The notes under the pieces were generated by a model, which had not been told where the DNA came from, ran no database searches, and saw only the letters and a program-made list of their open reading frames with translations. This document shows positions 6,135 to 59,364 of a stretch of 64,000 nucleotides of DNA, one piece after another. The DNA is from Mycobacterium sp. Its GTDB lineage: Bacteria > Actinomycetota > Actinomycetes > Mycobacteriales > Mycobacteriaceae. The DNA is taken from positions 1 through 64,000 of the forward strand of contig JAGQTV010000114.1 in assembly GCA_020438845.1 (NCBI GenBank). The letters run 5' to 3'. Made by a program: the position numbers and the translations under genes. Each line of letters starts with the position of its first letter. Positions within the stretch are counted from its first letter, which is position 1.

Positions 6135-7160
6135 TCAGCCCCGACCCGGCGCACGCGGCACCGGCAGCCGGTTGAGCAGTTGTTCCATGACGTCGCCGCC
6201 GTGCATGCTGCGCACCCACATCTCCGGCCGCAGGCTGATCCGGTGGCCGAAGGCGGCAACCGCAAGAGCCTTGACGTCCTCGGGCACCACGTAGTCGCGG
6301 CCGTTGAGCAACGCCCGGGCCCTCGCCAGTTGAACCAGGTCGAGTTCGGCGCGCGGGCTCGCGCCGACGACCACCTGGGGATGGGTGCGAGTCGCCGCCG
6401 CCAGTGCCACCACATAACGCAGGACGTCGTCATGGACGCTGACCTGTTCCACCGCACCCTGCATCGCAAGAAGACGTTGTGCGTCAACAATTTGGGTGAC
6501 CTCGACCTCGGCCGAACCGCGCTCCAACCGGCGGCGCAACATCGCCGTCTCGTCCTGTTCGGAGAGGTACTTCAGCGCAACCTTCACGGCGAACCGGTCC
6601 AGTTGCGCCTCAGGCAGTGGGTAGGTGCCTTCGAATTCGATCGGGTTGTCGGTGGCGATGACGATGAACGGCTCCGGCAGGTGGTGGGTTTGGCCGTCGA
6701 TACTGACTTGTCCCTCAGCCATGGCCTCCAGCAATGCAGCCTGGGTCTTGGGCGGGGTGCGATTGATTTCGTCGGCCATCAGCAGGTTGGTGAAGATCGG
6801 CCCGCGACGGAATTCGAATTGGCCCGACCGCATGTCGTAGATGGTCGAGCCGAGCAGATCCGCCGGCAGAAGGTCGGGAGTGAACTGCACCCGGGTGAAC
6901 TTCAGACCCAGCGCGGCGGCGAACGACCGGGCGATCAGGGTCTTTCCCATTCCGGGCAGGTCTTCGATCAGCACGTGGCCACCGGCCAGCACGGTGGTCA
7001 GGATCAGCGTCAGCGCGGCGCGCTTGCCGACGACGGCCCGCTCCACCTCGTCGAGGACGGCCTCGCCCAGCCCAGTCGTGTCAGTGCCGGTCGTGTCGGT
7101 GCCGGTCGTGTCAGTGCCGGTCGCGTCGGTGCCGGTCGTGTCGGTGCCTGATGTCGTCAT
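6135..7160 (-). CDS. MoxR-family AAA+ ATPase with N-terminal TDTTG repeat tail
   Basis: 341 residues. The Walker A motif is EDLPGMGKT and Walker B is LLMADEINRTPPKTQAAL, followed by a sensor IATDNPIEFEGTYPLPEAQLDRF and a C-terminal lid with SPRAELDLVQLARA. These are classic for MoxR ATPases, which act with VWA/DUF58 partners as chaperones for other complexes. The first 30 or so residues are a repeat of the pentapeptide TDTTG, not a normal part of the family, encoded by a 15-bp tandem repeat. The gene overlaps the upstream membrane-protein gene by 4 bp. If translation began downstream of the repeat, LGEAVLDEVERAVVG would be near the N-terminus and the domain would remain whole. Confidence 0.93.
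   Translation of the reverse strand: MTTSGTDTTGTDATGTDTTGTDTTGTDTTGLGEAVLDEVERAVVGKRAALTLILTTVLAGGHVLIEDLPGMGKTLIARSFAAALGLKFTRVQFTPDLLPADLLGSTIYDMRSGQFEFRRGPIFTNLLMADEINRTPPKTQAALLEAMAEGQVSIDGQTHHLPEPFIVIATDNPIEFEGTYPLPEAQLDRFAVKVALKYLSEQDETAMLRRRLERGSAEVEVTQIVDAQRLLAMQGAVEQVSVHDDVLRYVVALAAATRTHPQVVVGASPRAELDLVQLARARALLNGRDYVVPEDVKALAVAAFGHRISLRPEMWVRSMHGGDVMEQLLNRLPVPRAPGRG
7075..7148. repeat. 15-bp tandem repeat (4 full units plus ends) in moxR 5' end
   Basis: On the + strand the unit is TCGGTGCCGGTCGTG, starting at 7081, 7096, 7111 and 7126, with a part unit from 7141 and a part before 7081. Copies differ by single bases (TCAGTG for TCGGTG, GTCGCG for GTCGTG). The length is a multiple of three, so moxR stays in frame and gains TDTTG blocks. 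It looks like replication slippage and should vary in copy number between strains. Confidence 0.93.
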
Positions 7161-7642
7161 GCTTGTTCCAGTCTTCGGAGGATTTCGTCGAGGGTGGCCC
7201 GGCCCGGGCCGGGCTCGTCACGCTTGGCAGGCTGAGTGTTGTGCGGATCGACCCACGGCCACAGGTCGTCGCCGAAGACCATCCGCCCGGTAGCCGCCAC
7301 CGCGGCCGGCTCCTTCTGCCGGGTGGCCAACAGGAACTCGCGGGCCAGCTTGGGCCGCAAGTGCCGGTCCCACTCCGTGCGGCCCGAGTCCGACCAGCGG
7401 ATCATCGCGTCGGTCTGCGACTTCCACCGGTACAGCGACTCCAAAGCCTCGTTGACCGGCGGGGTCTCCGGCGGCTCGGGCTTGGCCCCGGCCATGTTGT
7501 TGCGCAGTTCGATCGCCATCACCGCCACCGCCAACCCCGCGATCGGCAGAGCCCAGTGACGCGCAACGACGAGGGCGATCAACTCGGCCAACAGGACCAG
7601 CAGAAAGCTGCTGGCCGCCACTCGGCTCCTGCCCGAATTCAC
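7157..7642 (-). CDS. Membrane-anchored protein of the MoxR operon
   Basis: 161 residues, GTG start at 7642 overlapping the DUF4129 gene stop by 4 bp (GTGA), and 4 bp overlap with moxR at its own end. Two hydrophobic segments near residues 10-27 and 30-47 are followed by a soluble region rich in charged residues (PEPPETPP, then LESLYRWKSQTDAMIRWSDSGRTEWDRHLRPKLAREF). This matches small proteins seen between DUF4129 and moxR genes in actinobacteria, but I know no function. The tight overlaps on both sides mean it is made in step with its neighbours. Confidence 0.8.
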   Translation of the reverse strand: MNSGRSRVAASSFLLVLLAELIALVVARHWALPIAGLAVAVMAIELRNNMAGAKPEPPETPPVNEALESLYRWKSQTDAMIRWSDSGRTEWDRHLRPKLAREFLLATRQKEPAAVAATGRMVFGDDLWPWVDPHNTQPAKRDEPGPGRATLDEILRRLEQA

Positions 7643-8625
7643 AGTGAATCCCGCAACGAACCCGCCGACGGAGCGCGCACCGGACTCCGCAACTCGCCGA
7701 GAACCGCTCGCAATGCCTGCTCGGCAGTGTCTCGGTGCCGCTCGGTCATCACATGCGGACTGAAACGCGCCTCGGTGAACAATGCCACCAGCGTCGACGC
7801 GTTGTTCGCGCTCAAAGCTCGTTTGCCGACGGCCCGAGCCAGCACCTCAGTGGGAGTGTCGGAGGCCTGCGGGGCAGCATCGGGCTCGCCGGCCAACGCC
7901 TGCTCCATCGCCGCGTAGCAGGCGATGATGGCCTCCCGAGGCTCGCGGCTGAGGTCACCCACCTCGGCCAGGCCGCGCTCGGCGGCCACCGCCAGCGGTT
8001 CCGCGGCCGGTTCGACCGGAGCGGTCCGGATCGCCGACAGCACGGTCGGCTCCGGGCGGGGGCGCTTGAGTGCGCTGACGATTCCGCTGGCGACGATCAT
8101 CACCGTCATCAGGGCCGTCGTTCCCATCAGGTACCAAAATGCGTCCTTGCCCGCCCGGGTCGCCGCCGGCGATGGCGGAGGGCCCACTTGTCCACCGTCG
8201 GGCGTGTCGACGGCGTTCGTGTTCTGTGCGAGGTCCGGTCCAAGCCGGATCTGCTGCAGCAACGCGTAGGCCATAACCGCGGCCAGGACAAGCCCGAGGC
8301 CCAACACCAGCAGACGCAGTTGCCACCGCCCCTTCCCCTCGCCGAACCCGCCGGGCACGTCGTGCCGTGCCGCGGCGACGGGTTGCTTCGGGCGACGCGC
8401 CGCCGCAACCAGGGCCACGCCCATCACCAGCAACGAGACACTCAACAACGCGATCAGGCCGGCCAACGTGAATGGGTTCTCGTCGGACCGTCCCCGAGGG
8501 CCCGCTTGAGGACCGGGCACGCGACCACGCAGGGTAACCCCCGCTGCGACCAGCAGCGTGAGCAGGACGGCGACCCGTCCTGCTCTTCCCCGCACCGCCG
8601 TGGATTGCGTACCTATGGCTCCCAT
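7639..8625 (-). CDS. DUF4129 domain membrane protein, first gene of the MoxR operon
   Basis: 328 residues from the ATG at 8625. There are three predicted membrane segments: residues 17-32, a long hydrophobic run 54-74 and 94-118, then a further one near 165-185. The C-terminal cytoplasmic part contains the DUF4129 pattern, EAIIACYAAMEQAL, then PTEVLARAVG and LVALFTEARFSPHVMTERHRDTAEQAL. DUF4129 occurs at the end of transglutaminase-type proteins and with MoxR/DUF58 genes. The frame is open to 8841 but that would run through the divergent cobG start. Only 27 bp separate it from cobG, so the two genes share a compact divergent promoter region. It probably leads a transcript running through cobN. 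Confidence 0.82.
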   Translation of the reverse strand: MGAIGTQSTAVRGRAGRVAVLLTLLVAAGVTLRGRVPGPQAGPRGRSDENPFTLAGLIALLSVSLLVMGVALVAAARRPKQPVAAARHDVPGGFGEGKGRWQLRLLVLGLGLVLAAVMAYALLQQIRLGPDLAQNTNAVDTPDGGQVGPPPSPAATRAGKDAFWYLMGTTALMTVMIVASGIVSALKRPRPEPTVLSAIRTAPVEPAAEPLAVAAERGLAEVGDLSREPREAIIACYAAMEQALAGEPDAAPQASDTPTEVLARAVGKRALSANNASTLVALFTEARFSPHVMTERHRDTAEQALRAVLGELRSPVRAPSAGSLRDSL

Positions 8626-8652
8626 GGTGTCACGCCGCCGTACCGTGGGCTT

Positions 8653-9795
8653 GTGAGTCGGACGCGCGACCATGACGCCTGCCCGGGAGCCCTGCAGGTC
8701 CATCAGGCCGCCGACGGCGCCCTGGCCCGGGTGCGGTTGCCCGGCGGCATGATCGACGCCGCCGGACTCGAAGCACTGGCCGACGCCGCCACCCGGTTCG
8801 GAGCAGGCACCCTGGAGCTGACCTCGCGAGGAAATCTGCAAGTGCGTGGCGTCCGGGGGGAATCGGGCATCGCCGGGTTGGCCGATGCGGTCACCGCGGC
8901 CGGCCTACTCCCGTCGCCCGGCCATGAGCGGGTGCGCAACATCGTCGCCTCCCCGCTCTCAGGCCGGGCCGGCGGACTCGCCGACGTCCGGCCATGGGTG
9001 GCCGAGTTGGACAGGGCGATCTGCGCCGAGCCTGAACTGGCCGATTTGCCGGGCCGGTTCCTGTTCTCGATCGACGACGGGAGCGCCGATGTGTCCGGGA
9101 TCGGCGCCGACATCGGGGTTCAGGTCATGGGGCGCGACGTGGCGCTACTGCTGGCCGGCTCCGACACCGGGGTGCGGCTGGATCCTTCCCAAACCATCGA
9201 GACTCTGATGACACTGGCCCGCCGATTCGCCGCTACGCGCGGAAGCGCTTGGCGGGTGAACGAATTGGCCGATCCGTCCTCCCTTCTGGCCGGCTTCACG
9301 GCGTCCGCTCCGGGTGGTCCCGTCGCCCCGGCCGGCCCCCCGCCGGTCGGCTGGATAGCCCAGGACGACGACCGGGTTGCGCTGGGCGCGGTAGTGCCCT
9401 TGGGCGTGTTGACGGCCCGTCAGGCACAGTTCGTGGCCGCTGTCGAGGCTCCGGTGGTGATTACCCCGTGGCGCTCGCTGGTGATCTGCGATCTCGAGGA
9501 GGGGGTGGCCGACACCGTCCTGCGGGTGCTGGCACCGCTGGGCCTGGTGTTCGACGAAACCTCTCACTGGCTGCAGGTGAGCGCCTGCGTCGGCAGGCCT
9601 GGATGCGAACGGTCGGCGGCCGATGTCCGAGCCGACGCCGCCCGTGCCGTCGACGGCACCGAGAGTGAGGCTGGGGGTGGCGGCCGGGTCCACTACGCAG
9701 GCTGCGACCGGGCCTGCGGCCGACCACCTCAGGCGAAGGTGCTGGTGGCCACCGAAGGGGGCTACCGCGAGCTGGGGCGGTCGGACGGGTCGTAG
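8653..9795 (+). CDS. cobG: Precorrin-3B synthase CobG
   Basis: 380 residues from a GTG at 8653. CobG is the oxygen-dependent step of aerobic corrin synthesis, converting precorrin-3A to precorrin-3B, with an iron-sulfur centre in a nitrite/sulfite reductase-like fold. The sequence shows the half-domain pattern ([20 protein letters not shown]) and near the end the cluster ligands CVGRPGC (C-x5-C) and CDRAC (C-x3-C). Its presence means the organism uses the late-cobalt, aerobic route. It is followed by cobH 10 bp later and cobIJ overlapping that, forming one operon. An upstream-open frame from 7735 is antisense to the DUF4129 gene and is not used. Confidence 0.95.
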
Positions 9796-9805
9796 GGTTG
9801 ACGCC

Positions 9806-10432
9806 GTGCTCGACTATGTCCGCGACGCCGCTGAGATCTATCGGCAATCGTTCGCGACGATTCGGGCCGAGGCCGACCTGAGCTGCTTTCCCTCCGACGT
9901 CGCCCGTGTGGTGGTCCGCTTGGTCCACACCTGCGGGCAGGTGGACCTCGCCGAGCATGTGGCGTTCACACCCGACGTCGTGTCCGAGACGCACGCGGCA
10001 CTGGCCGCGGGTGCACCGATCCTGTGCGACTCGTCGATGGTGGCCGCCGGAATCACCGCCGCCCGACTGCCCGCGGGTAATGAAGTGGTGTCGCTGGTTG
10101 CCGACCCCCGCGCCGCAGACCTTGCACAGCGCCGGGAGACCACACGTTCGGCAGCGGCAGTGGAGTTGTGGGCCGATCGGCTCGCCGGGTCGGTGCTGGC
10201 GATAGGCAACGCCCCCACCGCGCTGTTCCGGCTGCTGGAGCTTATCGACGACGGGGTGCCTGCGCCGGTGGCGGTGCTTGGCGGACCGGTCGGCTTCGTC
10301 GGCTCCGCGCAGTCCAAGCAGGAGCTCATCGACCGGCCCCGCGGCATGGAATACCTTGTGGTGCAGGGCCGTCGGGGCGGTAGCGCGATGGCCGCGGCTG
10401 CCGTGAACGCGATAGCGAGTGAACGCGAGTGA
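9806..10432 (+). CDS. cobH: Precorrin-8X methylmutase CobH
   Basis: 208 residues from a GTG at 9806, the same length as I recall for the M. tuberculosis protein. CobH moves a methyl group from C-11 to C-12 of precorrin-8X to give hydrogenobyrinic acid. Family features seen: [15 protein letters not shown] at the start, then [15 protein letters not shown] with the active-site His, ILCDSSMV, and the C-terminal [16 protein letters not shown] followed by a [15 protein letters not shown] segment. It ends in a 4-bp GTGA overlap with cobIJ, indicating coupled translation. The frame is open upstream into cobG but homology and the operon arrangement support this start. Confidence 0.96.
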
Positions 10433-11901
10433 GCGGGCGGGCGGCGAAACAAGGCACCCTCTACGGAGTCGGGCTGGGCCCGGGTGACCCGGAACTTGTA
10501 ACGGTCAAGGCTGCCCGGGTGATCGCCGAAGCCGACGTGGTCGCCTATCACAGTGCGCGCCACGGCCGTAGCATCGCCCGCCGGATCGCCGAGCCCTATC
10601 TGCGGCCGGGCCAGATCGAGGAGCATCTGGTGTATCCGGTGACCACCGAGACCACCGACCACCCGGGCGGCTACGCCGGCGCAATGGAGGATTTCTACGC
10701 CCGCTCCGCCGACCTGATAGCCGCACACCTCGCTGCGGGCCGCAACGTCGCCTTGCTTGCCGAGGGCGACCCACTGTTCTACAGCTCCTACATGCACATG
10801 CACACTCGGCTCACCCGGCGATTCAGCGCGGTGATCGTGCCCGGGGTGACGTCGGTGAGTGCGGCCTCGGCGGCTGTCGGTACCCCGCTGGTGACCGGTG
10901 ACGAAGTGCTGTCCGTGTTGCCCGGCACCCTGCCGGTGGCCGAGTTGGCCCAGCGGCTGAGCGAAACCGACGCCGCCGTGGTGATGAAACTCGGCCGGAC
11001 TTATCCGCAAGTGCGCGAAGCCCTTTCGTTGGCGGGCCGGCTCGACGATGCGGTCTACGTGGAGCGGGCCAGCACCGAGACCCAGCGGGTACTCCCGGCG
11101 GCGGACGTGGACGACGACCGGGTACCGTACTTCTCGCTGGCGGTGGTGCCCGGCAGACCGCGCGATGACGCGCAGCCCGGAACGGTCGCCGTCGTCGGCC
11201 TCGGGCCCGGCGACATCGCGTGGATGACGCCCCAGAGCCGCCGCGAACTGGCGGCCGCCACCGACCTGGTCGGTTACGGCCCCTACCTGGACCGCGTTCC
11301 GCCCCGGCCCAGGCAGCGCCGCCACGCATCCGACAACACCGACGAGATGCACCGCGCCCGCCTGGCCTGCGAACTGGCCGAGCAGGGCCGTGCGGTGGCG
11401 GTCGTCTCCTCCGGCGACCCAGGAGTGTTCGCCATGGCTACCGCGGTGCTCGAGGAAGCCAAGCAGTGGCCGAACGTGACGGTTCGGGTGATACCGGCGA
11501 TGACGGCCGCACAGGCAGTGGCCAGCCGGGTGGGCGCGCCCCTGGGCCACGACTATGCGGTGGTGTCGCTGTCCGACCGGCTCAAGCCCTGGGACGTCAT
11601 CGCCACGCGCCTGTCGGCGGCCGCCGCCTCGGATTTGGTCCTGGCGATCTACAACCCGGCTTCCACGAGTCGCACCTGGCAGGTCGAGGCCATGCGAGAC
11701 CTGCTTCTGGAACACCGCGATGCCGGCACCCCGGTAGTGATCGGCCGGGATGTGTCCGGACCGCACGAGTCGGTGAAGGTCGTTCGCCTTGCCGACCTCG
11801 ACGGCAGCGACGTCGACATGCGATGCCTGCTGATCGTCGGCTCGTCGCAGACGCAGTGGTACGGCGATACGGTGTTCACCCCGCGTCGCTATCCAGGCTG
11901 A
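10429..11901 (+). CDS. cobIJ: CobI-CobJ fusion: precorrin-2 C20- and precorrin-3B C17-methyltransferase
   Basis: 490 residues, GTG start overlapping cobH. Two SAM-dependent tetrapyrrole methylase domains are fused head to tail. The first begins [17 protein letters not shown] near residue 9 and contains [15 protein letters not shown]; the second begins at about residue 252 with [13 protein letters not shown] and has [13 protein letters not shown] and IYNPAST. The first corresponds to CobI (C20) and the second to CobJ (C17, ring contraction). The fusion is usual in mycobacteria. Its stop overlaps the convergent cobK gene by 13 bp in a small tandem repeat. In M. tuberculosis sigC and blaC follow at this point; they are absent here. 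Confidence 0.96.
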
Positions 11902-12626
11902 GCACCCAGGCTGAGCACCCAGGACACCGCGTCCTCCACCGAGCTCACCACGGCGACCCCGGCCGGAAGTGGCGGGCGGTCGATCATCACGACGTCCACA
12001 TCCAGTGCCTGCGCGGCGTGCAGTTTGGCCTCGGTGAGCTCTCCCCCACTGTTCTTGGTCACCAGCACGTCGATGCGATACCGCTGGAGCAGTCCGTATT
12101 CGTCTTCGTAACGGTAGGGGCCCCGGGAGAGCAGCAGCTGGTGACACCGCGGCAGCGCCGTGGGGTCGGGTGCGGTGACCACCCGGATCAGGAACCACGC
12201 GTCGCTGCCCGCAAAGGCGGCCGCCCCGGAACGGCCAGTGGTCAGGAACACCCGCGAATAACCCTGCTGAGCAACGTATTCAGCTGCTGCGGTATCAGAT
12301 CGCGCCCGATGGGCCCCGACCGCGCTCCAGGCTGGCCGGTGCAGTACCAGGTGCCGCAGCCCGAGTCCGGAGCACGCCTGCGCGGCATGGGCGGTCATGG
12401 CGGAGGCGAACGGGTGGGTGGCATCGACCACAGCGGTGATGTTGTTCTCGACCAACCAGTTCCGCAGACCCTCGACACCGCCGAAGCCGCCCATCCGCAC
12501 TGGCCCGACCGGCAGTGCAGGGTCGGGAACCCGGCCGGCCAACGAACTGACCAGCTCGATGTTGGGGTGCAGCCGGGCAGCCAGGTCCCGAGCCTCGCCG
12601 GTGCCGCCCAGTAGCAGCAGCCGCAT
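11889..12626 (-). CDS. cobK: Precorrin-6A reductase CobK
   Basis: 245 residues from the ATG at 12626, whose A is shared with the last base of the cobM stop (TGATG). CobK reduces precorrin-6A to precorrin-6B with NADPH. The start MRLLLLGGTGEARDLA is the typical CobK nucleotide-binding turn, and DATHPFA and LTTGRSG segments match the family. A TTG one codon upstream is possible but unneeded. It is the last gene of the cobL-cobM-cobK transcript, with overlaps at both junctions. Confidence 0.95.
   Translation of the reverse strand: MRLLLLGGTGEARDLAARLHPNIELVSSLAGRVPDPALPVGPVRMGGFGGVEGLRNWLVENNITAVVDATHPFASAMTAHAAQACSGLGLRHLVLHRPAWSAVGAHRARSDTAAAEYVAQQGYSRVFLTTGRSGAAAFAGSDAWFLIRVVTAPDPTALPRCHQLLLSRGPYRYEDEYGLLQRYRIDVLVTKNSGGELTEAKLHAAQALDVDVVMIDRPPLPAGVAVVSSVEDAVSWVLSLGAQPG
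11893..11923. repeat. 13-bp tandem repeat at the cobIJ/cobK convergent ends
   Basis: CCAGGCTGAGCAC occurs at 11893-11905 and 11906-11918, followed by a partial copy CCAGG. It covers the stop of cobIJ (11899-11901) and the last codons of cobK, so the duplication has reset the end of at least one gene. It is not a multiple of three, yet both genes end cleanly. Confidence 0.85.
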
Positions 12627-14559: not shown

Positions 14560-14578
14560 CGGATCACCTTTGCAACTG

Positions 14579-20839: not shown

Positions 20840-21823
20840 ATGCCCATCCCCCCGGTGCCCATCCCCCCGGCGCCCATCCCCCCGGCCGCTCCACTCTTGC
20901 TCCTCGACGGCGCCAGCATGTGGTTCCGCTCCTATTTCGGAGTGCCGACCTCGATCACGGCGCCTGACGGCCGCCCGGTCAACGCCGTTCGCGGATTCAT
21001 CGACAGCATCGCCACGTTGGTCACCCGGGAGCGTCCCGCTCGGCTGGTGGTGTGTCTGGACCTGGACTGGCGTCCGGCGTGGCGGGTATCGCTGATCCCG
21101 TCGTACAAGACCCACCGTGTCGCCGCTGAAGTCGACGAACTTGACGTCGAAGAAGTCCCCGACGACCTGAGTCCCCAGGTGGAAATGATCCTGGAGGTTC
21201 TCGACGCCTACGGGATCGCAACCGCTGGAGCACCGGGCTACGAAGCCGACGACGTCCTGGGCACGCTGGCCGAAGCAGAGCGCCACGACCGGGTCGTGGT
21301 GGTCAGCGGCGATCGTGACCTCCTGCAACTGGTCGCCGACGACCCGGTCCAGGTGCGCGTGCTTTATCTGGGGCGGGGGTTGTCCAATGCGACGACGTTC
21401 GGCCCGGCTGAGGTGGCCGAGCGGTACGGCGTTCCGGTGGATCGCGCCGGTGCGGCCTACGCGGAGTTGGCGCTGCTGCGCGGCGATCCGTCCGACGGCC
21501 TACCCGGCGTGCCCGGTGTCGGCGAGAAGACCGCCGCCACCATGCTCACCCAGTACGGCTCGCTTGCGGCCGTCCTGGCAGCAGCGCATGACCCGAAATC
21601 GCAGCTGCCCAAGGCTTTTCGCGCCAAGATCCTGGCGGCAACCGACTATATCGAGGCGGCTGGACCGGTGGTGCGGGTGGCCCGCGATGCTCCGGTTTCG
21701 CTGTCCGGAACCGACCGTCTGCCGCTGCACGCGGCCGATCCGAAGCGGGTGGCCGAACTGGCCGCGGCCTACGGAATCGGATCACCCGTCACGCGCTTGC
21801 AGAAAGCTCTCGACACCCTGTAG
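20840..21823 (+). CDS. 5'-3' exonuclease (Pol I-like FEN domain, Rv2090-like)
   Basis: 327 residues from the ATG at 20840, which is the first codon of the proline repeat. The FEN/PIN-type nuclease core is clear: [15 protein letters not shown], then [29 protein letters not shown] and [13 protein letters not shown] with acidic metal ligands, and a helix-hairpin-helix [18 protein letters not shown] near 225. It resembles the nuclease domain of DNA polymerase I standing alone, as in Rv2090. It would remove RNA primers or flaps. The N-terminal [16 protein letters not shown] arises from the repeat and has no family counterpart I know. Confidence 0.92.
20842..20886. repeat. 15-bp tandem repeat (3 units) in exonuclease 5' end
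   Basis: GCCCATCCCCCCGGT, then two copies of GCCCATCCCCCCGGC, at 20842, 20857 and 20872. In frame with the exonuclease gene it encodes [15 protein letters not shown] at the N-terminus. It lies in the shared 5' region of pepE and the exonuclease gene. Confidence 0.93.
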
Positions 21824-22733: not shown

Positions 22734-23444
22734 TTACTTGGGCCGGCCGACCTCGTAGGTGCCCTTGTCGTCCTGGAAGGTCACCGTGACTTGGCGCTTG
22801 GTGCCATCGATGCTGACCTCGCAGTTGAAGGTGTCACCCTTCTTGACCGTCGGGTTCTGACCGTTGTTGCACTTGACGTCCTTGACGTTCTTGGCCCCAT
22901 AACCATTTGCGTCGTCGGTCAGGATCTGCTGCACGCCCTGCTGCGCCTTGTTGACGTCGAGTTTGGTGGTGACAAAGAATCCGGGCTTCCAGAATCCGAG
23001 CACCAACACGACAAGCAGGACCAGCGCGGCCAACGCCCCGAGCACCACGCCGAGGGCGCGGCCGGACTTCTTGGCCGCATCCGGGGCTCCCGGCGGCCCG
23101 TAGCCGCCGTACTGACCGGGCTGTCCGGGCTGGGGGTACTGGCCCGGCTGCGGGTACTGCCCGTACTGCGGTGGGCCGTACTGACCGTACTGGCCGTACT
23201 GACCGGGCTGCCCCGGCTGGCCGTAGGCATTGCCGTAGTCGGTCGGCTGACCGTAGGCCTGCGTCGGGGGGTAGCCCGGCATCGGCTGGCCGTACTGCTG
23301 ATACTGCTGCGGGGTGTAGGCCGGCGGCTGCCAGGCCGGTGCCTCGCTGCTCGGCGGCTGCCAGCTGGGGTTCGCATCCGAGCCAGGGGCAGGCTGATCC
23401 TTACCCTGCCAGGGGTTGGGGTCAGAACCCTGCGGTCCGCTCAT
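22734..23444 (-). CDS. DUF4333 membrane protein with Q/P/G/Y-rich N-terminus (Rv2091c-like)
   Basis: 236 residues with a good ribosome site (AAGGAGAGAC) before the ATG. Residues 1-120 are low-complexity: repeats of GQPGQYGQY and PQPGQYPQP type, with many Gln, Pro, Gly and Tyr. One membrane segment at about 128-152 ([23 protein letters not shown]) is followed by the DUF4333 domain with two Cys ([15 protein letters not shown]), probably a disulfide outside the cell. The tail is basic. Similar proteins are common in mycobacteria; the function is unknown. Confidence 0.85.
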
Positions 23445-23511: not shown

Positions 23512-26370
23512 CTATCCGTTGTCCACGGCGACGACGCCGCGCCGGATGTCGTCTATGGCGCGTTTCGCGGTCTTCCGCAAACCTGCCTCGGGTGCGGCGT
23601 TGCGGACCTGGTCCAGCAGGTCGAGCACCTGACGGCACCACCGCACGAAATCGCCCGCCGGCAGCTGGACACCGTTGCCTGCGACGTCGGAGGCGGCCAG
23701 CGCGGCGGCCAGGTTGCCGGTGGTAGCCCACCGGTAGACAGCCGGCGCGAACCCTTCGTCGGGTTCCCGCGAGGGGTTGAGGCGGTGGCGGTTCTCGTCG
23801 GCGCGTAGTTGGTCGGACAACCGCCGGGTCGCAACGAGCGCCCTGCGCACCTGCGGGGTCGGCAGTTCGACGGCATGCAGCGGGGTAGGCCCGTCGCCGC
23901 CGCGGGTCTCGAACACCATCGCAGAAAGCACTGCTGCCAGCTCAGCCGCCTGAAGGCCTTTCCAGACCCCGGTCCGCAGGCACTCGGCGACCAACAGGTC
24001 GCTCTCGCTGTAGATCCTTGCCAGCAGCCTGCCGTCGTCGGTGACCTGCGGGCGCTCCTGCCCGTGGGCGGCACCGATATACCCGCGCTCGGTCAGCAGT
24101 CCGACGATGCGGTCGAACGTACGGGCCAGCGAGTTGGTGGCAGCGCTGACCTTCGCGCGGGTCTGCTCGTTGTCCCGCTCGATGCGCAGAAACCGCTCGG
24201 CCACGCGCACCTGTGTCTCGCGGTCGGCCATCCGATGGCCCGGGTGCCGCCGCATCGCCTCCCGCAAAGCCAGGAGTTCGGGATCCGAATCGGCCGATTC
24301 GTCGGTCTCGGCGCGTCGCTTCCGCGCTGAAGGCACGACAATTCCCTCCGCAGCCGACCGGAGCGCCGAGGCCAGGTCCCGGCGGACCTTGGGCTGACGA
24401 TGCTCGACCCGCTTGGGCAGACTCATCGACCCCAGCGGCGCTCCACCGGTATAGTCCGCCGAGGAAATCCTTCCCGCCCAACGGTTTTCGGTCAGCACCA
24501 ACGGACGCGGATCGTCTGGCTCGCGAGCCGGTTCCAGCACCACCGCCATCCCGCCACGCCGACCGTGGGTCAAGGTGATGATGTCGCCGCGGCGCAGCGT
24601 GGCCAAAGCATCGGTGGCGGCCTGCCGACGCTGCAGCCGGGAGCTTCGCGACGCCGCGCGCTCGCGTTCGCCGATCTTGGCGCGCAGCCGGGCGTAGTCG
24701 AGGATCGCCGGTTCGACGCCGCCGCCCGCGCGGCGTTTCCAACCCAACTCCGCAGCGATCTCGTCGAGCATCTTCTCGCCTCGCTCGACCCCGCGGATAA
24801 GGCCGACCACTGACCGATCCGCTTGGTACTGGGCGAAGGAGCGCTCCAGAAGCTCGCGCGCCGCGGCCGGCCCCATCTGGCTGACCAGGTTGATGGTCAT
24901 GTTGTAGGACGGAACGAACGAACTGCGCAGCGGGAAGGTTCGGGTGGAGGCCAGGCCGGCGATCTCGGTCGGTTCGGCGGTGGAGTCCTGCGGGTTCCAC
25001 ACCACCACCGCGTGACCCTCGACGTCGATTCCGCGACGCCCGGCGCGACCGGTCAACTGGGTGTACTCCCCCGGCGTCAGCGGCAGGTGCTGTTCGCCGT
25101 TGAACTTGACCAGCTTCTCCAACACCACGGTGCGGGCCGGCATGTTGATGCCCAACGCGAGTGTTTCGGTGGCGAAGACGGCCTTCACCAGCCCGGCGGT
25201 GAAGAGTTCCTCCACAGTGTGCCGGAACATCGGCAACATCCCGGCGTGATGAGCTGCCAGCCCGCGGAGCAGCCCTTCGCGCCACTCGTAGTAGTCCAGC
25301 ACCGCCAGGTCGGCGTCGGCGAGGTCGGCGCAGCGGCGGTCGATCACCTCGGCGATGCGAGCTCGATCCGATTCAGTTGTGAGCCGCAATGGGCTGCGCA
25401 GGCACTGCTTGACCGCCGCTTCGCATCCGGCCCGGGAGAAGATGAAGGTAATGGCGGGCAGCAGTCCCTCGCGGTCCAGGGTCGTGATGACGTCCGGGCG
25501 CGACGGCGGACGGTACAGCCCCGGGCCGCCGGGACGGCCACGCCGGTGGCGCGGTTCCCAGTCGACCAGCCGGTCGGCCTCGCGACGGTGAGCGATGTGA
25601 CGGACCAATTCCTGGTCGACGTTATGCCGGCCGGAGGCCGCTGTACCCGTGTCGCCCTGCCGGCCGGAGGCCGCTGTGCCGGTGGCGCCCTGCCGGCCGG
25701 AGGCCGCTGTGCCGGTGGCGCCCTGATAGTCGAACAGGTCAAACAGCCGCTTGCCCACCAGCACGTGCTGCCACAGCGGCACCGGGCGGTGCTCGTCGAC
25801 CACCACGGTGGTGTCCCCCCGCACGGTCTTGATCCAGCCGCCGAATTCCTCGGCATTGCTCACGGTGGCCGAGAGGCTGACCAGCCGCACCTCCTCCGGC
25901 AAGTGCAGGATCACTTCCTCCCAGACCGCGCCGCGCATGCGGTCGGCCAGGAAGTGGACTTCGTCCATCACGACGTAGGACAGCCCGCGCAGCGCATGCG
26001 AACCCGCGTAGAGCATGTTGCGTAACACTTCGGTGGTCATCACCACCACAGGGGCGTCGCCGTTGATCGACTGGTCGCCGGTGAGCAAGCCGATGCGCTC
26101 CGGACCGTACCGGCGCACCAGGTCGGTGTGCTTCTGGTTGCTCAGCGCCTTGATCGGGGCGGTGTAGAAGCACTTCTGACCTGCTGCCAGCGCCAGGTGC
26201 ACCGCGAACTCCCCCACCACCGTCTTTCCTGCCCCGGTCGGGGCGCAGACCAACACACCGTGGCCGCGTTCCAGCGCCTGGCAGCCGGCGATCTGAAACG
26301 GATCGAGTGTGAACGTCAGCTGCTCGGCGAAGCCGGCAAGCTGGGAGTCTTGATTAGGTGATGTCGTCAT
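23512..26370 (-). CDS. helY: ATP-dependent DExH helicase HelY (SKI2-like)
   Basis: 952 residues. Motif I is CAPTGAGKT, motif [13 protein letters not shown], motif [13 protein letters not shown], and later motif VI is [12 protein letters not shown], with a C-terminal DSHCT-type region. It is an RNA/DNA helicase of the Ski2/Mtr4 group, orthologous to Rv2092c. Relative to a remembered length near 906, this copy has an extra stretch at about residue 215-250, encoded by three 33-bp repeats. The start ATG overlaps tatC by 17 bp, so the two are coupled. Confidence 0.94.
25625..25723. repeat. 33-bp tandem repeat (3 units) inside helY
   Basis: Units start at 25625, 25658 and 25691, each beginning TGCCGGCCGGAGGCCGCTGT. 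The second and third are identical; the first differs at four positions. In helY they give 11-residue blocks [11 protein letters not shown] twice and [11 protein letters not shown]. It sits between helicase motifs III and IV, where an added loop would be tolerated. Confidence 0.9.
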
Positions 26371-27268: not shown

Positions 27269-27272
27269 AGTC

Positions 27273-27317
27273 GATTACCTAGTGCCCGATTACCTGGTGC
27301 CGGATTACCTGTGGCGC
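27273..27317. repeat. 15-bp tandem repeat (3 units) in the tatA-tatC gap
   Basis: GATTACCTAGTGCCC (27273), GATTACCTGGTGCCG (27288) and GATTACCTGTGGCG (27303). The gap has 74 bp and the repeat covers most of it, immediately 5' of the tatC start, so copy number changes the distance between tatA stop and the tatC ribosome site. Confidence 0.88.
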
Positions 27318-27638: not shown

Positions 27639-28700
27639 CTACCCGGCTTCGGCCCCGGACTTGCCCAGCACCGCATAGACGGCTAACGCATCCTGGGCTG
27701 CCCGGCGGACGCGGCGAGCCAGCCCCTCTGGTTCCAGCACCTGTACGTCGGCGCCGAATCCGAGGATTTGGCGGGCCATCCACTCCTCTGCCGCGTAGGT
27801 CATCACCACCTCGAAATTCCCGTCGGGCAGTTCCGCGGTGACCCGCATCGGAAAATATTCGAGCATCCAGGAGGCCTGCGGGGAGATCTGCAGCCTGGCC
27901 GACGGCAGCGACGGATCGGCGTGGAACAGGGCGGTGTTCGTGGGCGCCTCGACGGCCGGACGGGGCGGGGCAGCGGGTTCGTCGAGCACGCGAGCGTCCA
28001 GAATCCGGTCAAACCGGAATAGCCGCACCCCTTCGGCCTCGCGTGACCACGCCTCCAGGTAGCTCCAGTCACCGACCACGACCACTCGGATCGGGTCGAC
28101 GATCCGGCTGGACTGGGCGTCTCGGGAGGCCGAGTAGTACTCAATCACCAAAGCGCGCTGGTCGCGCACGGCCGCCCGGACCGCAGCGACGGCGGCAGTC
28201 TCCTCTGGCGCAGTCTCCGCTGGCGCAGTCTCCTCTGGGGCAGTCTCGTCTGGGGCGGTCTCCCCCGGGCCGGCGACTGGCCCGACGGTCACCGGACCCT
28301 GAGCTGCTCCGGTGGCCGCCTCGATCTTGGCGATCGCACTGCGCGCCGCGGCCGGGTCCACCACGCCGGGAATGTCGGAGAGAGCCCGCAGGGCCAGCAA
28401 CAAACCGGTGGCCTCCGGCGAGGTCAGCCGCAGCGGCCGGTCCATGCCGGCCGAGAAGGTGACCTTGATGGTGTCCCCGGACAGTTCGAAGTCGATCAGG
28501 TCACCGGGGTAGTAGCCGGGCAGTCCGCACATCCACAGCAGGTTGATGTCCTGCTGCAGTTGTCTGCGGTTGACGCCAAGGTCCGAGGCGGCCTTCGCAT
28601 AGCTGACCCGCGGGTTGGCCTGGAAGTAGGGGATCATGTTCAGCCACCGCACCAAGCGGGCGGCGACGGGGGTCATGGGTGTGGCTGGCGGTGGGGTCAC
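27639..28700 (-). CDS. pafC: WYL-domain regulator PafC, with ETAPE repeat insertion
   Basis: 353 residues, about 35 more than the length I remember for M. tuberculosis PafC. An N-terminal helix-turn-helix (AKAASDLGVNRRQLQQDINLL) is followed by a WYL domain and a C-terminal WCX part. PafB and PafC form a heterodimer activating the LexA-independent DNA damage response in mycobacteria; WYL domains sense a ligand such as single-stranded DNA. The extra length is mostly a Glu-Thr-Ala-Pro run encoded by a 15-bp repeat between the HTH and WYL parts. The ATG overlaps pafB by 4 bp. Confidence 0.93.
   Translation of the reverse strand: MTPPPATPMTPVAARLVRWLNMIPYFQANPRVSYAKAASDLGVNRRQLQQDINLLWMCGLPGYYPGDLIDFELSGDTIKVTFSAGMDRPLRLTSPEATGLLLALRALSDIPGVVDPAAARSAIAKIEAATGAAQGPVTVGPVAGPGETAPDETAPEETAPAETAPEETAAVAAVRAAVRDQRALVIEYYSASRDAQSSRIVDPIRVVVVGDWSYLEAWSREAEGVRLFRFDRILDARVLDEPAAPPRPAVEAPTNTALFHADPSLPSARLQISPQASWMLEYFPMRVTAELPDGNFEVVMTYAAEEWMARQILGFGADVQVLEPEGLARRVRRAAQDALAVYAVLGKSGAEAG
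28195..28269. repeat. 15-bp tandem repeat (5 units) inside pafC
   Basis: Units begin at 28195, 28210, 28225, 28240 and 28255, consensus GCAGTCTCCTCTGGC on the + strand. The copies differ by one to four bases. In pafC they encode pentapeptides of the ETAPE type in a linker. Confidence 0.93.
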
Positions 28701-32229: not shown

Positions 32230-32273
32230 GCCTGTGCCCCCATGACGTCTGCCCCCATGACGTCTGCCCCCAT
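32227..32273. repeat. 15-bp tandem repeat in the prcB-prcA gap
   Basis: CATGACGTCTGCCCC occurs twice at 32241 and 32256, with a degenerate 14-bp copy (CATGCCTGTGCCCC) before and a CAT after. On the coding strand each unit carries an ATG and a GGGG run, so the gap contains out-of-frame ATGs and repeated weak ribosome sites before the true prcA start. Confidence 0.9.
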
Positions 32274-50661: not shown

Positions 50662-50668
50662 GTGCACT

Positions 50669-52622: not shown

Positions 52623-52641
52623 GTGATGGCCTCAACCGGCA

Positions 52642-52685
52642 ATGCTACGTGTGATACGTTGCACCATGCTGCGTGTATCAACGTT
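52642..52685. promoter_or_regulatory. Two direct repeats between tetR and the monooxygenase gene
   Basis: ATGCTACGTGTGATACGTT (52642-52660) and ATGCTGCGTGTATCAACGTT (52666-52685), starts 24 bp apart. Each contains a GATAC or GTATC core. They are in the divergent promoter, 20 bp before the tetR start and 70 bp before the monooxygenase ATG, a usual place for a TetR operator. Confidence 0.5.
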
Positions 52686-52756
52686 TCATCCACGTCTGCG
52701 CGGCCAGGCCGAACCCAGTGGATAAGCCGATTGCAAGCGACCTGCAGGAGACGAAC

Positions 52757-54022: not shown

Positions 54023-54070
54023 AGCGACCGGCCCAGCCCGGCTCGGCCGGGTCTGCGATAACGTGCTGGC

Positions 54071-55252: not shown

Positions 55253-55257
55253 GCACC

Positions 55258-56361
55258 ATGAACTTTGACCTGACCGACGAGCAGCAGATGCTGGCCGACA
55301 CTGCGCGGGAGTTGCTGTCGCGCAGCTATGACACCGAAAGCCGCAACAAGACAGTCGAATCGGATCTCGGGTGGAGCCGGGAGGTCTGGAACCAGCTCGC
55401 AGAGATCGGCATCCTGGGCCTGGGTTTCGATCCCGAGGAAGCCGGGCCTATCGAGGTCATGGCCGTCATGACTGAGATGGGTCGCCGGTTGGCTCCGGAA
55501 CCGGTCGCCGCGGCTGCACTCATCCCGGGCGCTGCCATCGCTGCACACGGCTCCGCCGAGCAACGCGCGCTGCTTGACGACGTGGCCGCCGGGGAACTCC
55601 TGCTGGCCTTCGCCCACACCGAGCATGACCGGCGCGGATCCACCGAATTATCCACACGTGCTGTCCGACAGGGTGATTCGTGGACCCTGAACGGGCGAAA
55701 GAATCCGGTACTGGCCGGCGACTGCGCCGATGTCCTGATCGTCAGCGCCGCACTTCCGGGCGGTGGTTCCGGGCTGTTCCTAGTGGATGCAGGTGCAGCC
55801 ACCCGCCATCCCTACCGGACCTTCGACGGTCAGCGCGGCGCCGAGGTGATTCTCGACGATGCCCCGGCTCGACCACTCGGCAACGGCGGCGAAGCAAGTG
55901 GAACGATTGCCGAAGTCGTGGCCCGCTTCCAGTCGGCGCTGTGCGCGGAGGCCGTCGGAGCGATGGACGAATCGCTGCGGCTGACAACCGATTACCTCAA
56001 GAGCCGTAAGCAGTTCGGAGTGCCGCTGAAGACCTTCCAGACGCTCACCCAACGGGCCGCCGATATGTATGTCTCTCTGGAGCAGGCCCGCAGCATGAAC
56101 TTCTATGCCGCGATGTACCTTGCCGAGGGGATCGTCGACCCGATGGTGGCCGCGCGGTCCAAACTGCAGATCGGCCGTTCCGGCCGGCACATTGCACAGG
56201 AGTCCATCCAGCTGCACGGCGGCATCGGCGTGACCGCGGAGTACCCGATCGCCCATTACGCCGCTCGATTGACCGCAATCGACCAGACGTTCGGATCTGC
56301 GACAGACCAACTGCGCTACCTCAGCGGCCGTGTCGGCGACTACGGGGTTGTCACGCTGTAG
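55258..56361 (+). CDS. Acyl-CoA dehydrogenase (FadE-type), smaller partner
   Basis: 367 residues. MNFDLTDEQQMLADTARELL is a normal FadE N-terminus, with IQLHGGIGVTAEYPIAHYAARLTAIDQTFG at the end. It carries weaker substrate motifs than the first (LNGRKNPVLAGDCADVLIV lacking the usual Trp-Thr), as expected of the partner in alpha2-beta2 FadE pairs. It starts 5 bp after its neighbour and would be translated with it. The 233 bp that follow contain no gene. Confidence 0.88.
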   Translation: MNFDLTDEQQMLADTARELLSRSYDTESRNKTVESDLGWSREVWNQLAEIGILGLGFDPEEAGPIEVMAVMTEMGRRLAPEPVAAAALIPGAAIAAHGSAEQRALLDDVAAGELLLAFAHTEHDRRGSTELSTRAVRQGDSWTLNGRKNPVLAGDCADVLIVSAALPGGGSGLFLVDAGAATRHPYRTFDGQRGAEVILDDAPARPLGNGGEASGTIAEVVARFQSALCAEAVGAMDESLRLTTDYLKSRKQFGVPLKTFQTLTQRAADMYVSLEQARSMNFYAAMYLAEGIVDPMVAARSKLQIGRSGRHIAQESIQLHGGIGVTAEYPIAHYAARLTAIDQTFGSATDQLRYLSGRVGDYGVVTL

Positions 56362-56594
56362 GTTTTCCCGCGATTGTCGATCAGAGATCGAAAACACCCT
56401 GCTCATAGCGACGAGCCCGCCACCGGAAGGTTCTGCCCGGCTTAGGCATTGGCGCTCAGCAACCATCTCTGCAGCATGGTTGACGACATTCCGAACGGTG
56501 CCTTATTCCGGTGGCGGGCCAGCCGCGTATCGATGTGATGGCATCACCTCCTCGATCGCCTCAGGGCATCCGTGGGTAGGAGGACGGCCGCCGA

Positions 56595-57032
56595 TCAGGC
56601 GTCGATGACCTGCTTTTCCCTGATTGTGTGCGCTCGATCGCCGTGGTCGATCGCAATCTTTCGGGGCTTGGCCCGCTCGGCCACCGGGATCCGTAGTCGC
56701 AGCACCCCTGCCTGGTAGGACGCTTGGATGCGCTCGGTGTCCAGATTGTCTCCGAGCACCAACTGCCGGCTGAACACACCGCGAGGCCGCTCGGTGGCTA
56801 GCATCTCCCGGGCTGGGTCGACATCCGGACGCTCAGCGCGGACCGTGACCACGTTGCGTTCGATGTCCAGATCCAAGGACCGCTCATCGATACCCGGCAG
56901 ATCGAATTCGACGACGAACTCCTCACCCTCACGCCAGGCATCCATCGGCATCACCGCTGGACGGGCTGCGGTCCCGAGCACCTGCTGAGTGAAGCGGTCC
57001 AGGTCCCGAAAAGGGTCGCTACGCATCAACAT
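56595..57032 (-). CDS. Hsp20-family small heat shock protein (Hsp18-like)
   Basis: 145 residues from the ATG at 57032 ([14 protein letters not shown]) with AGAGGTGG upstream; an earlier start at 57056 adds eight residues. The alpha-crystallin domain runs from about 35 to 130 with [33 protein letters not shown] and the [11 protein letters not shown] end motif. It binds unfolded proteins under heat or oxidative stress. Divergent from a MerR-type gene that probably controls it. The end is a short acidic/basic tail. Confidence 0.93.
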
Positions 57033-57179
57033 GGTCGCCACCTCTACTACTCCCATCTCTCATCGATGTGGCTGAACTTATCTATGCCAACTGGCACATA
57101 TTTTATATATCTCGGATACGCTGGATTGGCAAGAACCCGACGGAATTTTTTTCGAGTCGAACGGGAGCGCCATCGGCCT

Positions 57180-57497
57180 ATGACAGACCAGCGCCACCGA
57201 ATGACCCCGCCACCCGAACAACCCGTCTACGCGATTTCGATTGCCGCCGAACTCTCCGGCGCCGCAATCCAATCCATCCGACTCTGGGAACAGCGCGGAC
57301 TGCTCACTCCGCACCGCAGCCCTGGTGGGACCCGCCGTTACAGCGCAAACGACCTGACCCGCATCGCACGCATCACCGCACTGGTCGACGCCGGGGTCAA
57401 CATCGCCGGCATCGCCCGCATCCTCGACCTTGAGGACGACAACACCGCCCTCCGCGCTCAGCGACAGCCGGGCCGCGACCCGGACCAGCCACGCTAG
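57180..57497 (+). CDS. MerR-family regulator (HspR-like) divergent from hsp20
   Basis: 105 residues from the ATG at 57180. The HTH and wing (YAISIAAELSGAAIQSIRLWEQRGLLTPHRSPGGTRRYS) are MerR type, as in HspR, with a following short helical region (LTRIARITALVDAGVNIAGIARIL) and no C-terminal sensor domain. HspR-like proteins repress Hsp genes under normal conditions. The 147-bp gap to hsp20 is AT-rich and has the inverted repeat TGCCA-AC-TGGCA (near 57090). The tail is Arg/Pro-rich. Confidence 0.85.
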   Translation: MTDQRHRMTPPPEQPVYAISIAAELSGAAIQSIRLWEQRGLLTPHRSPGGTRRYSANDLTRIARITALVDAGVNIAGIARILDLEDDNTALRAQRQPGRDPDQPR

Positions 57498-57563
57498 CCG
57501 AAAAAACGGCCGGGAATTCCAGGACGGACTCCGGTGCCACACTGCAGCGCCTAACCTGTGCCA

Positions 57564-57755
57564 ATGGCTACTTACTCCTGCCCAACCTGCTCCATGTCCA
57601 CCGTCGTCACCTGCGGACACTGCGGCGCCGACCTGGCCGATGGCTCGATCACCACCGCCGAGGGCGTCAACGTCCGTGTCGCGGAGTGCCCCGCGGGACA
57701 CGGCAAGATCAAGTCACCGATGTGCTGCGGCAACGATATGACGTGCAGCGTTTAA
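57564..57755 (+). CDS. Small cysteine-rich zinc-ribbon-like protein
   Basis: 63 residues from the ATG at 57564. It has nine cysteines: CPTC, CGHC, one in AECPAGHG, CC in MCCGN and a final C in MTCSV. The spacing C-x2-C twice suggests one or two zinc sites. Many mycobacteria carry a small protein like this downstream of stress genes, but I cannot name a function. It is convergent with the DUF1254 gene, 3 bp away. Confidence 0.75.
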   Translation: MATYSCPTCSMSTVVTCGHCGADLADGSITTAEGVNVRVAECPAGHGKIKSPMCCGNDMTCSV

Positions 57756-57758
57756 GGC

Positions 57759-59219
57759 TCAGCCGACCTTGACAACCTTGGGCGGCTGCCAGGTGCCGTC
57801 CAGGGCTTCCGGCTTGGGCCAATACAACCGCATGAACATGGTGAACGGCCCGGGTGGAGCCGGCAGCCAGTTGGCCTCCTTCTCGGGGCCCGGACGGGCG
57901 TTCTGGATATAGAGCGTGATGCTGCCGTCGGGGTTCTTGGCCAGGTCGGGCAGCATCGGTGAGTTGATCAGGTACCGGTTGATCGGGTTGTCCACAAGCA
58001 GCGACTCGGGCAGCTTGTACATGGTCACCGACCAGAACGCGTTGACCGGCGGCAACTGCCCCGCCGGGAAAGTCAGGGTGTATTTGTCGGCTCCGGTCAG
58101 CGGAGCGCCGTCAGAATCGGTGGCAAGGGCTGGGTACAGGGCCTCCTGCTTGGAGTTTCCGTAGATCCCGAGCACCGCACCCGCCATGCGGTACAGGTAG
58201 TTCCCGTTGAGTTCTTCCGCCGTACCGAAGAGGTCGCCAGCCTGCACGGCTCCGGTGTCGAACTTGTCCTTCTTGAGGGTCTCGAACTCCGTCCAGGCGT
58301 CAGCCATGCCGGACTTGAACGCCTCCTGGTTCTCCGGGCTGAGTATCTCGGAGCGGAACGTGCCGTCACCGGTCAGCCCGATCGACGCGAAACGCGCCCG
58401 AATGTCCCTCTCCGCCGGCAGGGTCGGGGCGTATTTCAACTGGAAGTCGAGCAGGTCGAAGAATCGCAGCGAAGTCTTCTGCTCCTCTGAAGTCAGCGGG
58501 GTAGGCCAGTCGATGGTCGGCGCCGCCGTCGGCGCCTGCTTCTTGAGGAATACCGACAATGGCTCTGCCTGGTAGCCGGTTTGAATCTTCGCGACAGACT
58601 CAAGATCATCCGGGCCGAGCAACTGGGTGCGGTAGATCACCACGGCGAAGTCGGTGGCGCTCTTGATCACCTGCTGGATACCTTCCGGCTTCTCGCCGTT
58701 CCAACCCGGCCCGGCCAGCAGGTAAGCCCCTCCATCGGTTCCGCTGGTCCGGCTGCCGAGGTAGGCGAAGTTATACGTATAGCCGTCGACGAACTGCAGC
58801 GAGAAGTACCGATCCTTGTTGATCGGCGGAACTAACAACACCAGCGGCTCCGCCCGCAGGTCCGCCCCCAGCATCGAATACGGGGTGTCGGAGTTCGGGG
58901 TCTGAACAGCCGTGTCCGCTGGGGTGTAAACCCTTGCGGTGCTGTGAACTTCGTTCCACGGCCCCTTGTATTCGGGACTGGCGGAGTCGATGAAATAGGA
59001 GTACTGGACCCGGTAGCTGTCGACCATCGGGAAGCCGTAGATATAGGCTTCCTTGGCGATCGCACGGACCCGTTCGGGGGCCAGTGGGCCAGCCGTGGAC
59101 GGAGTCGACGACGTAGTGCTGGCCTGGTTCTGGGTGGCCTTGTTGCCGCAGCCGGCCAGCATGGCGACGAGCAAGACAACGATGAGAACGACCCAGCGCC
59201 GCAATCCAATCCTGTTCAT
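57759..59219 (-). CDS. DUF1254/DUF1214 lipoprotein
   Basis: 486 residues with a lipoprotein signal peptide ending MLAGC (Cys near 24). The DUF1254 domain (AIAKEAYIYGFPMVDSYRVQYSYFID, then PNSDTPYSMLGADLRAEP) occupies about 50-180 and DUF1214 the C-terminal third (PPVNAFWSVTMYKLPESLLVDNPINRYLINS, ending with GPFTMFMRLYWPKPEALDGTWQPP). These two domains normally occur together; function is unknown though relatives are secreted. Separate transcription unit. Downstream of bphP with 118 bp between. Confidence 0.93.
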   Translation of the reverse strand: MNRIGLRRWVVLIVVLLVAMLAGCGNKATQNQASTTSSTPSTAGPLAPERVRAIAKEAYIYGFPMVDSYRVQYSYFIDSASPEYKGPWNEVHSTARVYTPADTAVQTPNSDTPYSMLGADLRAEPLVLLVPPINKDRYFSLQFVDGYTYNFAYLGSRTSGTDGGAYLLAGPGWNGEKPEGIQQVIKSATDFAVVIYRTQLLGPDDLESVAKIQTGYQAEPLSVFLKKQAPTAAPTIDWPTPLTSEEQKTSLRFFDLLDFQLKYAPTLPAERDIRARFASIGLTGDGTFRSEILSPENQEAFKSGMADAWTEFETLKKDKFDTGAVQAGDLFGTAEELNGNYLYRMAGAVLGIYGNSKQEALYPALATDSDGAPLTGADKYTLTFPAGQLPPVNAFWSVTMYKLPESLLVDNPINRYLINSPMLPDLAKNPDGSITLYIQNARPGPEKEANWLPAPPGPFTMFMRLYWPKPEALDGTWQPPKVVKVG

Positions 59220-59296
59220 CGCTGCACACTATCCTTCTGGGTTCATTACGGGATCCGTCTGGAATCCTTCTGGATTGCGCGCCAATGCCGCCCGCG

Positions 59297-59364
59297 GTGT
59301 CATTCAGGACGCTGTGTCATTCAGGACACAGGGTCATTCAGGAAACGGTGTCATTCAGGAAAAG
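59297..59364. repeat. 17-bp tandem repeat (4 units) at the end of bphP
   Basis: Units starting at 59297, 59314, 59331 and 59348, of the form GTGTCATTCAGGANNNN. The last copies form the C-terminal codons of bphP and its stop; the others lie after the stop. Copies are conserved in the first 13 bases and vary in the last four. It is not a multiple of three. Confidence 0.88.

Follow-up and report, generated by a model that had tools for sequence, protein, structure and literature searches.

Variable-number tandem repeats (VNTRs) have long been known in mycobacteria, and most descriptions of minisatellites in bacteria treat them as individual loci for strain typing. Mycobacterial interspersed repetitive units (MIRUs) belong to a single dispersed family with larger units. 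Here, we describe short tandem arrays in a 64,000-nucleotide stretch of Mycobacterium sp. DNA (assembly GCA_020438845.1, contig JAGQTV010000114.1, positions 1 to 64,000; 'the window') and in the genome that holds it (G000; 4.53 Mb in 118 contigs). The arrays are of an ordinary, real repeat kind; what is unusual is their abundance at the level of a clade and their preference for units of 14–18 bp. For M. tuberculosis, a 2025 report (PMC12817950) describes promoter tandem repeats that change copy number at frequencies of 10^-2 to 10^-3 per chromosome within isogenic populations, a repeat upstream of dop with a unit of 57 bp and an in-frame bias among repeat variants in pe/ppe genes. Within the reach of our literature searches, we recognised no work that deals with this clade or with a 15-bp class of array.

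Tandem arrays in the window

Using Tandem Repeats Finder (TRF) with a score of at least 60 as the counting threshold, nine arrays are called in the window, against a mean of 0.12 after dinucleotide shuffling and 0.18 after codon-block shuffling; neither kind of shuffle gave more than one array in 50 trials. As head-to-tail copies of short units occurring above chance, the arrays are minisatellites. The copies are contiguous and lack unique spacers, in agreement with the first-pass annotation of this DNA, which had set them apart from clustered regularly interspaced short palindromic repeats (CRISPR). That annotation had named eight repeat sites, all of which TRF recovers, and had proposed a genome-wide tendency to expand short repeats. 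Two of the nine arrays are internal to genes (helY and pafC), three are N-terminal (moxR, an exonuclease and the gene at 62153–62716) and four are in gaps or at gene ends.

Unit length and phylogenetic range

The tendency does extend beyond the window: 81 high-identity arrays were found in 1.114 Mb of G000, window included, and the surrounding clade shares it. At this density (73 per Mb), ∼330 arrays would be predicted for the whole genome. In a FastTree tree of nine concatenated proteins (107 rows), G000 pairs with G371 (support 99) inside a clade of nine genomes (support 100), namely G000, G371, G234, ZLKRG49, G218, L103, HKST-UBA35, G354 and G032. The sister group comprises eleven genomes, including M. 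sphagni, M. rhodesiae and M. sp. M26. We found no other genome of this species; the closest relative is 86% identical over all aligned positions and 89% identical over the tree columns. The clade members that have named records are metagenome-assembled genomes (MAGs), and several clade genomes are incomplete. L103 (CAMCWJ010000026.1) is titled as a Bifidobacterium breve MAG, yet its pafB region places it inside this Mycobacterium clade; it is probably mislabelled.

The length of the unit is what distinguishes the clade. In a copy-matched count (at least 2.8 copies and at least 85% match), 1.05 Mb of G000 outside the window holds 52 arrays, among them 23 with units of 14–18 bp and seven with units of 9 bp; units of 10–13 bp are rare (three arrays). 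The other clade members are thinly sampled (268 kb in all, 9–80 kb per genome) and have 14–18 bp units in eight of 20 arrays. Such units make up none of the four arrays in the sister clade and none of the 11 in the rest of the genus (0.4 Mb each), where three and six arrays, respectively, have 9-bp units. Arrays of 9 bp are present in all four samples. Counted by score (at least 60, with at least 85% match), there are 25 arrays of 13–18 bp in 654 kb outside the window, against none and three in two comparison samples of 400 kb each. L016 and L028 were left out of the density samples, as they are all N.

The same preference is seen without TRF scores. The exact-run spectrum of 718 kb, window included, has 19 runs at lag 15, one at lag 12, three at lag 14, one at lag 16 and two at lag 18; a larger sample of G000 has 23 at lag 15, eight each at lags 14 and 18 and one at lag 12. 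Random genus DNA (400 kb) has one run at lag 15, and orthologous DNA (1.5 Mb) has ten. Perfect duplications of 13–60 bp number 51 in 1.114 Mb of G000 (46 per Mb). The other clade members have 18 in 268 kb, ranging from none in 13 kb of HKST-UBA35 to five in 19 kb of G032. The sister and genus samples have 10 per Mb, and non-clade orthologous DNA has 21 per Mb, low-complexity genes included.

Two simpler ways of reading the counts were considered and set aside. A score of 60 corresponds to two perfect 15-bp copies, so that the 15-bp peak could be an effect of the TRF threshold; the peak persists in the copy-matched count. Total array density was rejected as a sign of anything special: the values for G000 (0.114 and 0.075 per kb in two samples, 0.141 per kb in the window) lie within those for the genus (0.055 per kb in random DNA, 0.104 and 0.152 per kb in the orthologous region), and low-complexity genes such as that at 22734–23444 inflate the counts of relatives. 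The first-pass annotation had named an equal number of loci per kb in other genomes as the observation that would tell against it; this is what we found with all arrays lumped together, but not for units of 14–18 bp. The gene at 22734–23444, between the exonuclease and helY, has no array at score 60 in the window; in relatives it is a repeat hot spot, with 80 arrays (score of at least 55) in 65 scanned rows.

Individual arrays and the same sites in relatives

The comparison with the closest sister, G371, covered tatA–tatC, pafC, helY and prcB–prcA. At three of these four sites (tatA–tatC, pafC and helY) G371 lacks the array. The helY array (25625–25725, minus strand; 33 bp × 3.1) lies inside helY (23512–26370, minus strand), where an 11-residue unit is inserted after DLFDY, and the insert is absent from the aligned relatives that span the site. 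Where the tatA–tatC gap holds its array (27272–27311, minus strand; 15 bp × 2.7), G371 has the motif just once, and the TatA tail is expanded with unrelated units of 24 bp in G032 and 9 bp in ZLKRG49. In pafC (27639–28676, minus strand; PF19187, PF13280 and PF25583), the array (28195–28263, minus strand; 15 bp × 4.6) falls in the linker between the helix-turn-helix and WYL domains and encodes ETAP plus D, E or A in each unit. The PafC linker of G032 has an unrelated 10-residue (30-bp) unit, and pafC holds some array in 19 of 105 rows. The prcB–prcA gap, which holds an array at 32235–32273 (minus strand; 15 bp × 2.6), is ∼44 bp in G000, 28 bp in G371, with a partial repeat of its own, and at most 17 bp in the eleven other relatives shown. 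Unrelated units at the same permissive places may be read as independent, recurrent births at tolerant sites. The emphasis that the annotation had placed on proteasome, Tat, helicase and damage-response genes is not upheld, as the arrays sit in linkers, termini and gaps that also vary in relatives.

A G-run and an ATG recur in every unit of the prcB–prcA array. The sequence shows that its copies form one 15-codon mini open reading frame, the TGA stop of which overlaps the ATG of prcA, and translational coupling is possible. Queries with the proteasome genes gave no match or relative in the plasmid and viral collections.

A MoxR-type AAA ATPase (6135–7160, minus strand; PF07726) carries the moxR array (7075–7148, minus strand; 15 bp × 4.9) at its N-terminus; the array repeats TGTD(T/A), and the N-terminus reads MTTSGTDTTGTDATGTDTTGTDTTGTDTTG. 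The exonuclease array (20842–20886, plus strand; 15 bp × 3.0) sits between a stand-alone 5'-3' exonuclease (PF02739 and PF01367; stop at 21823) and a divergent M24 peptidase. The annotation had listed it under the exonuclease. With the ATG at 20840 as the start codon, the array is in frame at the N-terminus; our own codon-usage gene caller put the start at 20897 and left the array intergenic. The doublet assigned to the cobIJ/cobK junction is present (11893–11923; 13 bp × 2.4) and starts where two convergent genes (10429–11901, plus strand, and 11889–12626, minus strand) overlap at their ends; it lies mostly within the C-terminal end of the minus-strand gene. The array at the end of bphP (59295–59360, minus strand; 17 bp × 3.9) straddles the stop codon of that gene (59338–62160, minus strand; PAS-GAF-PHY-GGDEF-EAL) and is mostly outside it. 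The ninth array, absent from the earlier list, is at 62685–62722 (minus strand; 18 bp × 2.1), at the N-terminus of the gene at 62153–62716/62803 (minus strand).

A longer repeat was seen at the pafB–pafC junction of L037 (8968), L144 (10983) and L199 (13123): a 35-bp tandem unit with a core, picked out by eye, of TCATGCGCGA beside CTTCG..CTCGCTGG. It also occurs at position 1 of L217 in G024, a contig end ∼60 kb from the pafB–pafC junction, and looks like a dispersed repeat family in several mycobacteria. One pattern made from it, which misses some of the units listed here, had no match in ∼1.06 Mb of G000. A second 35-bp unit is identical at 29 of 35 positions between L187 (7443; G277) and L199 (1607; G354), which are small-genome relatives from different clades.

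Unit sequence and reading frame

The units had been described as unrelated in sequence, and among 24 15-bp units we found no strong shared motif. On average, a unit matches its best partner at 7.89 of 15 positions, whereas 60 shuffles that kept the composition give a mean of 7.69 and a maximum of 7.85; one pair matches at 12 of 15 positions, and shuffles give up to two such pairs. As the mean lies slightly above all 60 shuffles, there is room for a weak common tendency. The 24 units do not form one dispersed family of related units as MIRUs do. An insertion element or miniature inverted-repeat transposable element (MITE) is not indicated by units that are unrelated between sites, although inverted repeats were not searched for.

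Within genes, unit lengths had been said to be nearly all divisible by three. This is so for 38 of 40 coding arrays in 1.114 Mb (15 bp, n = 17; 18 bp, n = 6), whereas the non-coding or junction arrays give 20 of 41 (14 bp, n = 5; 15 bp, n = 7; 16 bp, n = 2; 17 bp, n = 5; 18 bp, n = 5). The gene caller misplaces some starts, and recounting the array at 20842 as coding changes the figures to 39 of 41 and 19 of 40. The coding mode of 15 bp thus follows from the non-coding spread of 14–18 bp passed through a filter for reading frame. Selection for reading frame is not enough to fix the length, since two of the five 15-bp arrays in the window (tatA–tatC and prcB–prcA) lie outside genes, although the overlap with the prcA start could favour a multiple of three even in that gap.

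A mechanism that steps in triplets in non-coding DNA was considered and is treated as unproven. Multiples of three make up 20 of 41 non-coding or junction arrays (p = 0.03), 18 of the 38 that are under half coding (p = 0.05) and 12 of the 18 that overlap no called gene (p = 0.004), at least the array at 20842 having been miscounted among the last; they make up two of ten arrays without any frame open through the array.

Origin of the arrays

We consider that the arrays are probably minisatellites born by replication misalignment in steps of at least 14 bp, unusually frequent in this clade, invisible to NucS and filtered by selection. Replication-associated misalignment would copy at least ∼14 bp in tandem, in many cases between short matches on either side, and the duplication would then grow through further slips. 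The clade would make or keep such duplications several times more often than the sampled relatives. NucS is the actinobacterial mismatch enzyme, and PMC8228993 states that it does not correct indels; indel loops would be left uncorrected, with no known system to remove them. In genes, selection would remove nearly all units that are not multiples of three and leave arrays mainly in linkers and termini, and 15 bp would dominate, being the shortest in-frame length that clears a floor near 14 bp. Near neutrality is probable for most arrays. The data show the excess, its limits to the clade within the DNA sampled, the lack of the window's arrays in relatives, the frame filter and the scarcity of 10–13 bp units; we infer the slippage route, the cause of the floor and the near neutrality. 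In 38 perfect duplications (two to three copies), a mean of 6.6 matching bases extends beyond two copies, against 0.86 in simulated blunt duplications; this is consistent with short matches at the ends of the duplicated stretch or with additional copies that have decayed.

A number of points weigh against this account. The surplus matching may partly be decayed third copies rather than microhomology, and simple polymerase slippage should favour short units and does not predict a floor at 14 bp. A predicted NucS domain scores above the cut-off in 19 of 20 genomes searched, G000 among them (not in G354, which is 92% complete). G000 therefore does not have the NucS loss of a mismatch-repair mutator, and NucS does not explain the clade difference; its indel blindness could explain why loops persist. 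The clade is uneven: in G371, no array lies in the 10.4 kb of core segments and 64 kb hold two perfect duplications, and HKST-UBA35 has no perfect duplication in its 13 kb. G277, a small genome outside the clade, is also rich (six perfect duplications in 45 kb) and represents a second small-genome group, so that this clade is not alone in its excess. Among the 15-bp arrays counted, some are K/A/P-rich tails of a low-complexity type (L058 6474). Finally, G000 ranks first in conserved core segments, with five arrays in 12.0 kb, whereas the 102 loci used out of 106 have 41 in a total of 1,111 kb, but the figure for G000 is biased upwards because the window had been picked for its arrays. The remaining loci held too little of the segments; clade members are included, and four genomes were entered twice. 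A fair test of the excess comes from DNA sampled outside the window.

Relaxed selection in small populations, with ordinary births of duplications and weaker purging, is an unlikely explanation. Core array density does rise with falling genome size (Spearman −0.39, p = 0.0007, 72 genomes, uncorrected for kinship), and the second small-genome group (G277 and G025) is array-rich, but all lengths should then rise together: 9-bp arrays are no denser (seven in 1.05 Mb against three and six in 0.4 Mb each of the sister and genus samples), whereas those of 14–18 bp go from none to 23. A more far-reaching proposal, to which we give a small chance, is that this small-genome environmental clade has a distinct duplication process with a minimum step of ∼14 nucleotides, set by a strand-annealing or fork-restart activity that needs to cover this length, and unmasked by the loss of DinB2/DinB3-type polymerases. 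Together with the reading frame, such a process would write 15-bp (five-residue) expansions into conserved proteins genome-wide and drive the evolution of linkers.

It is rather improbable that the arrays are contingency loci, in which copy number would be selected to tune expression or protein length by phase variation. The analogy comes from M. tuberculosis, where, according to PMC12817950, the promoter repeats that vary within isogenic populations include those upstream of dop; in the window, tatC, prcA and an exonuclease gene have arrays that reach their starts. Against this, the units are not conserved in the closest sister at three of the four compared sites, the sites are those that tolerate indels, and genes with no relation to one another show the preference for 15 bp.

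Depletion of DinB-type translesion polymerases, which would shift stalled forks towards realignment and so to more duplications, refines the misalignment account rather than opposing it, and we are doubtful of it. Y-family domains (PF00817) give two matches in G000, one to three in the other eight clade genomes and four to five in the eleven sister-group genomes, the one gene-content difference seen among six families searched; four is also the usual number in the remaining genomes searched. Core arrays number 14.5 per 100 kb in genomes with at most two such genes (14 genomes) and 2.4 with at least four (52 genomes), but there is no smooth trend, with 1.7 at three genes (six genomes). These 72 of 73 genomes (one had no core segment) include the five arrays of the window, as does a comparison of independent tree pairs (at most three genes against any array), which is not significant (median p = 0.375). 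Small genomes go with both features (13.5 per 100 kb at up to 4.6 Mb, 1.8 above 5.6 Mb), several clade genomes are incomplete, and DinB2 itself is reported to cause frameshifts in homopolymer runs (PMC10159617), so that its loss need not raise slippage. The Y-family link is thus a lead, confounded with genome size. G000, G371, G234, G218, G354, G032, G420, G431 and G433 lack the ∼170-bit and 140-bit Y-family score groups usual in the genus; G354 and G032 have only the low-scoring group, which we take to be ImuB-like. Among the other families searched, RecG and RadA are found in 20 of 20 genomes and Ku in 18, including G000, with no match in G218 and G032; G032 is array-rich but 93% complete.

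Faulty processing of Okazaki 5' flaps is very unlikely. Yeast rad27 (FEN1) mutants make tandem duplications, the spectra of which the extra flanking matches resemble, and the stand-alone exonuclease of the window has an expanded N-terminus. However, 5'-nuclease (flap nuclease) matches occur in 25 of 25 genomes, all nine clade genomes have both a long (PolA-like) and a stand-alone 5'-nuclease domain match above the cut-off, and the stand-alone protein keeps its conserved blocks in the four clade members compared. An assembly or binning artefact is extremely improbable: several genomes are MAGs and one G000 array is at a contig end (L019), but the copies within many arrays differ by substitutions, 38 of the 40 coding arrays stay in frame and short-read assembly tends to collapse repeats rather than to create them.

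Comparison with known systems

The account of replication misalignment that we prefer concerns one clade with a distinct length class (14–18 bp, at least 2.8 copies) that is not seen in 0.8 Mb of sister and other mycobacterial DNA. It makes testable the limits on tandem duplication in bacteria without MutS/MutL and the effect of losing translesion polymerases, and the arrays are candidate strain-typing markers.

Like the duplications of yeast rad27 mutants, those described here are short and bounded by short direct matches; unlike that case, no flap-nuclease gene is missing. The likeness to MIRUs lies in tandem copies in gene gaps that sometimes overlap start or stop codons, as at prcB–prcA, and the difference in the units, MIRUs being one family and the 24 units here sharing no strong motif. 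The arrays are closest to mycobacterial VNTRs and to the M. tuberculosis promoter repeats of PMC12817950: both have short direct tandem units, in gaps and in genes, with an in-frame bias. They differ from those promoter repeats, of which the dop unit is 57 bp, in having units that are unrelated from site to site and in their excess of 14–18 bp units, which is a feature of a clade rather than of a few loci.

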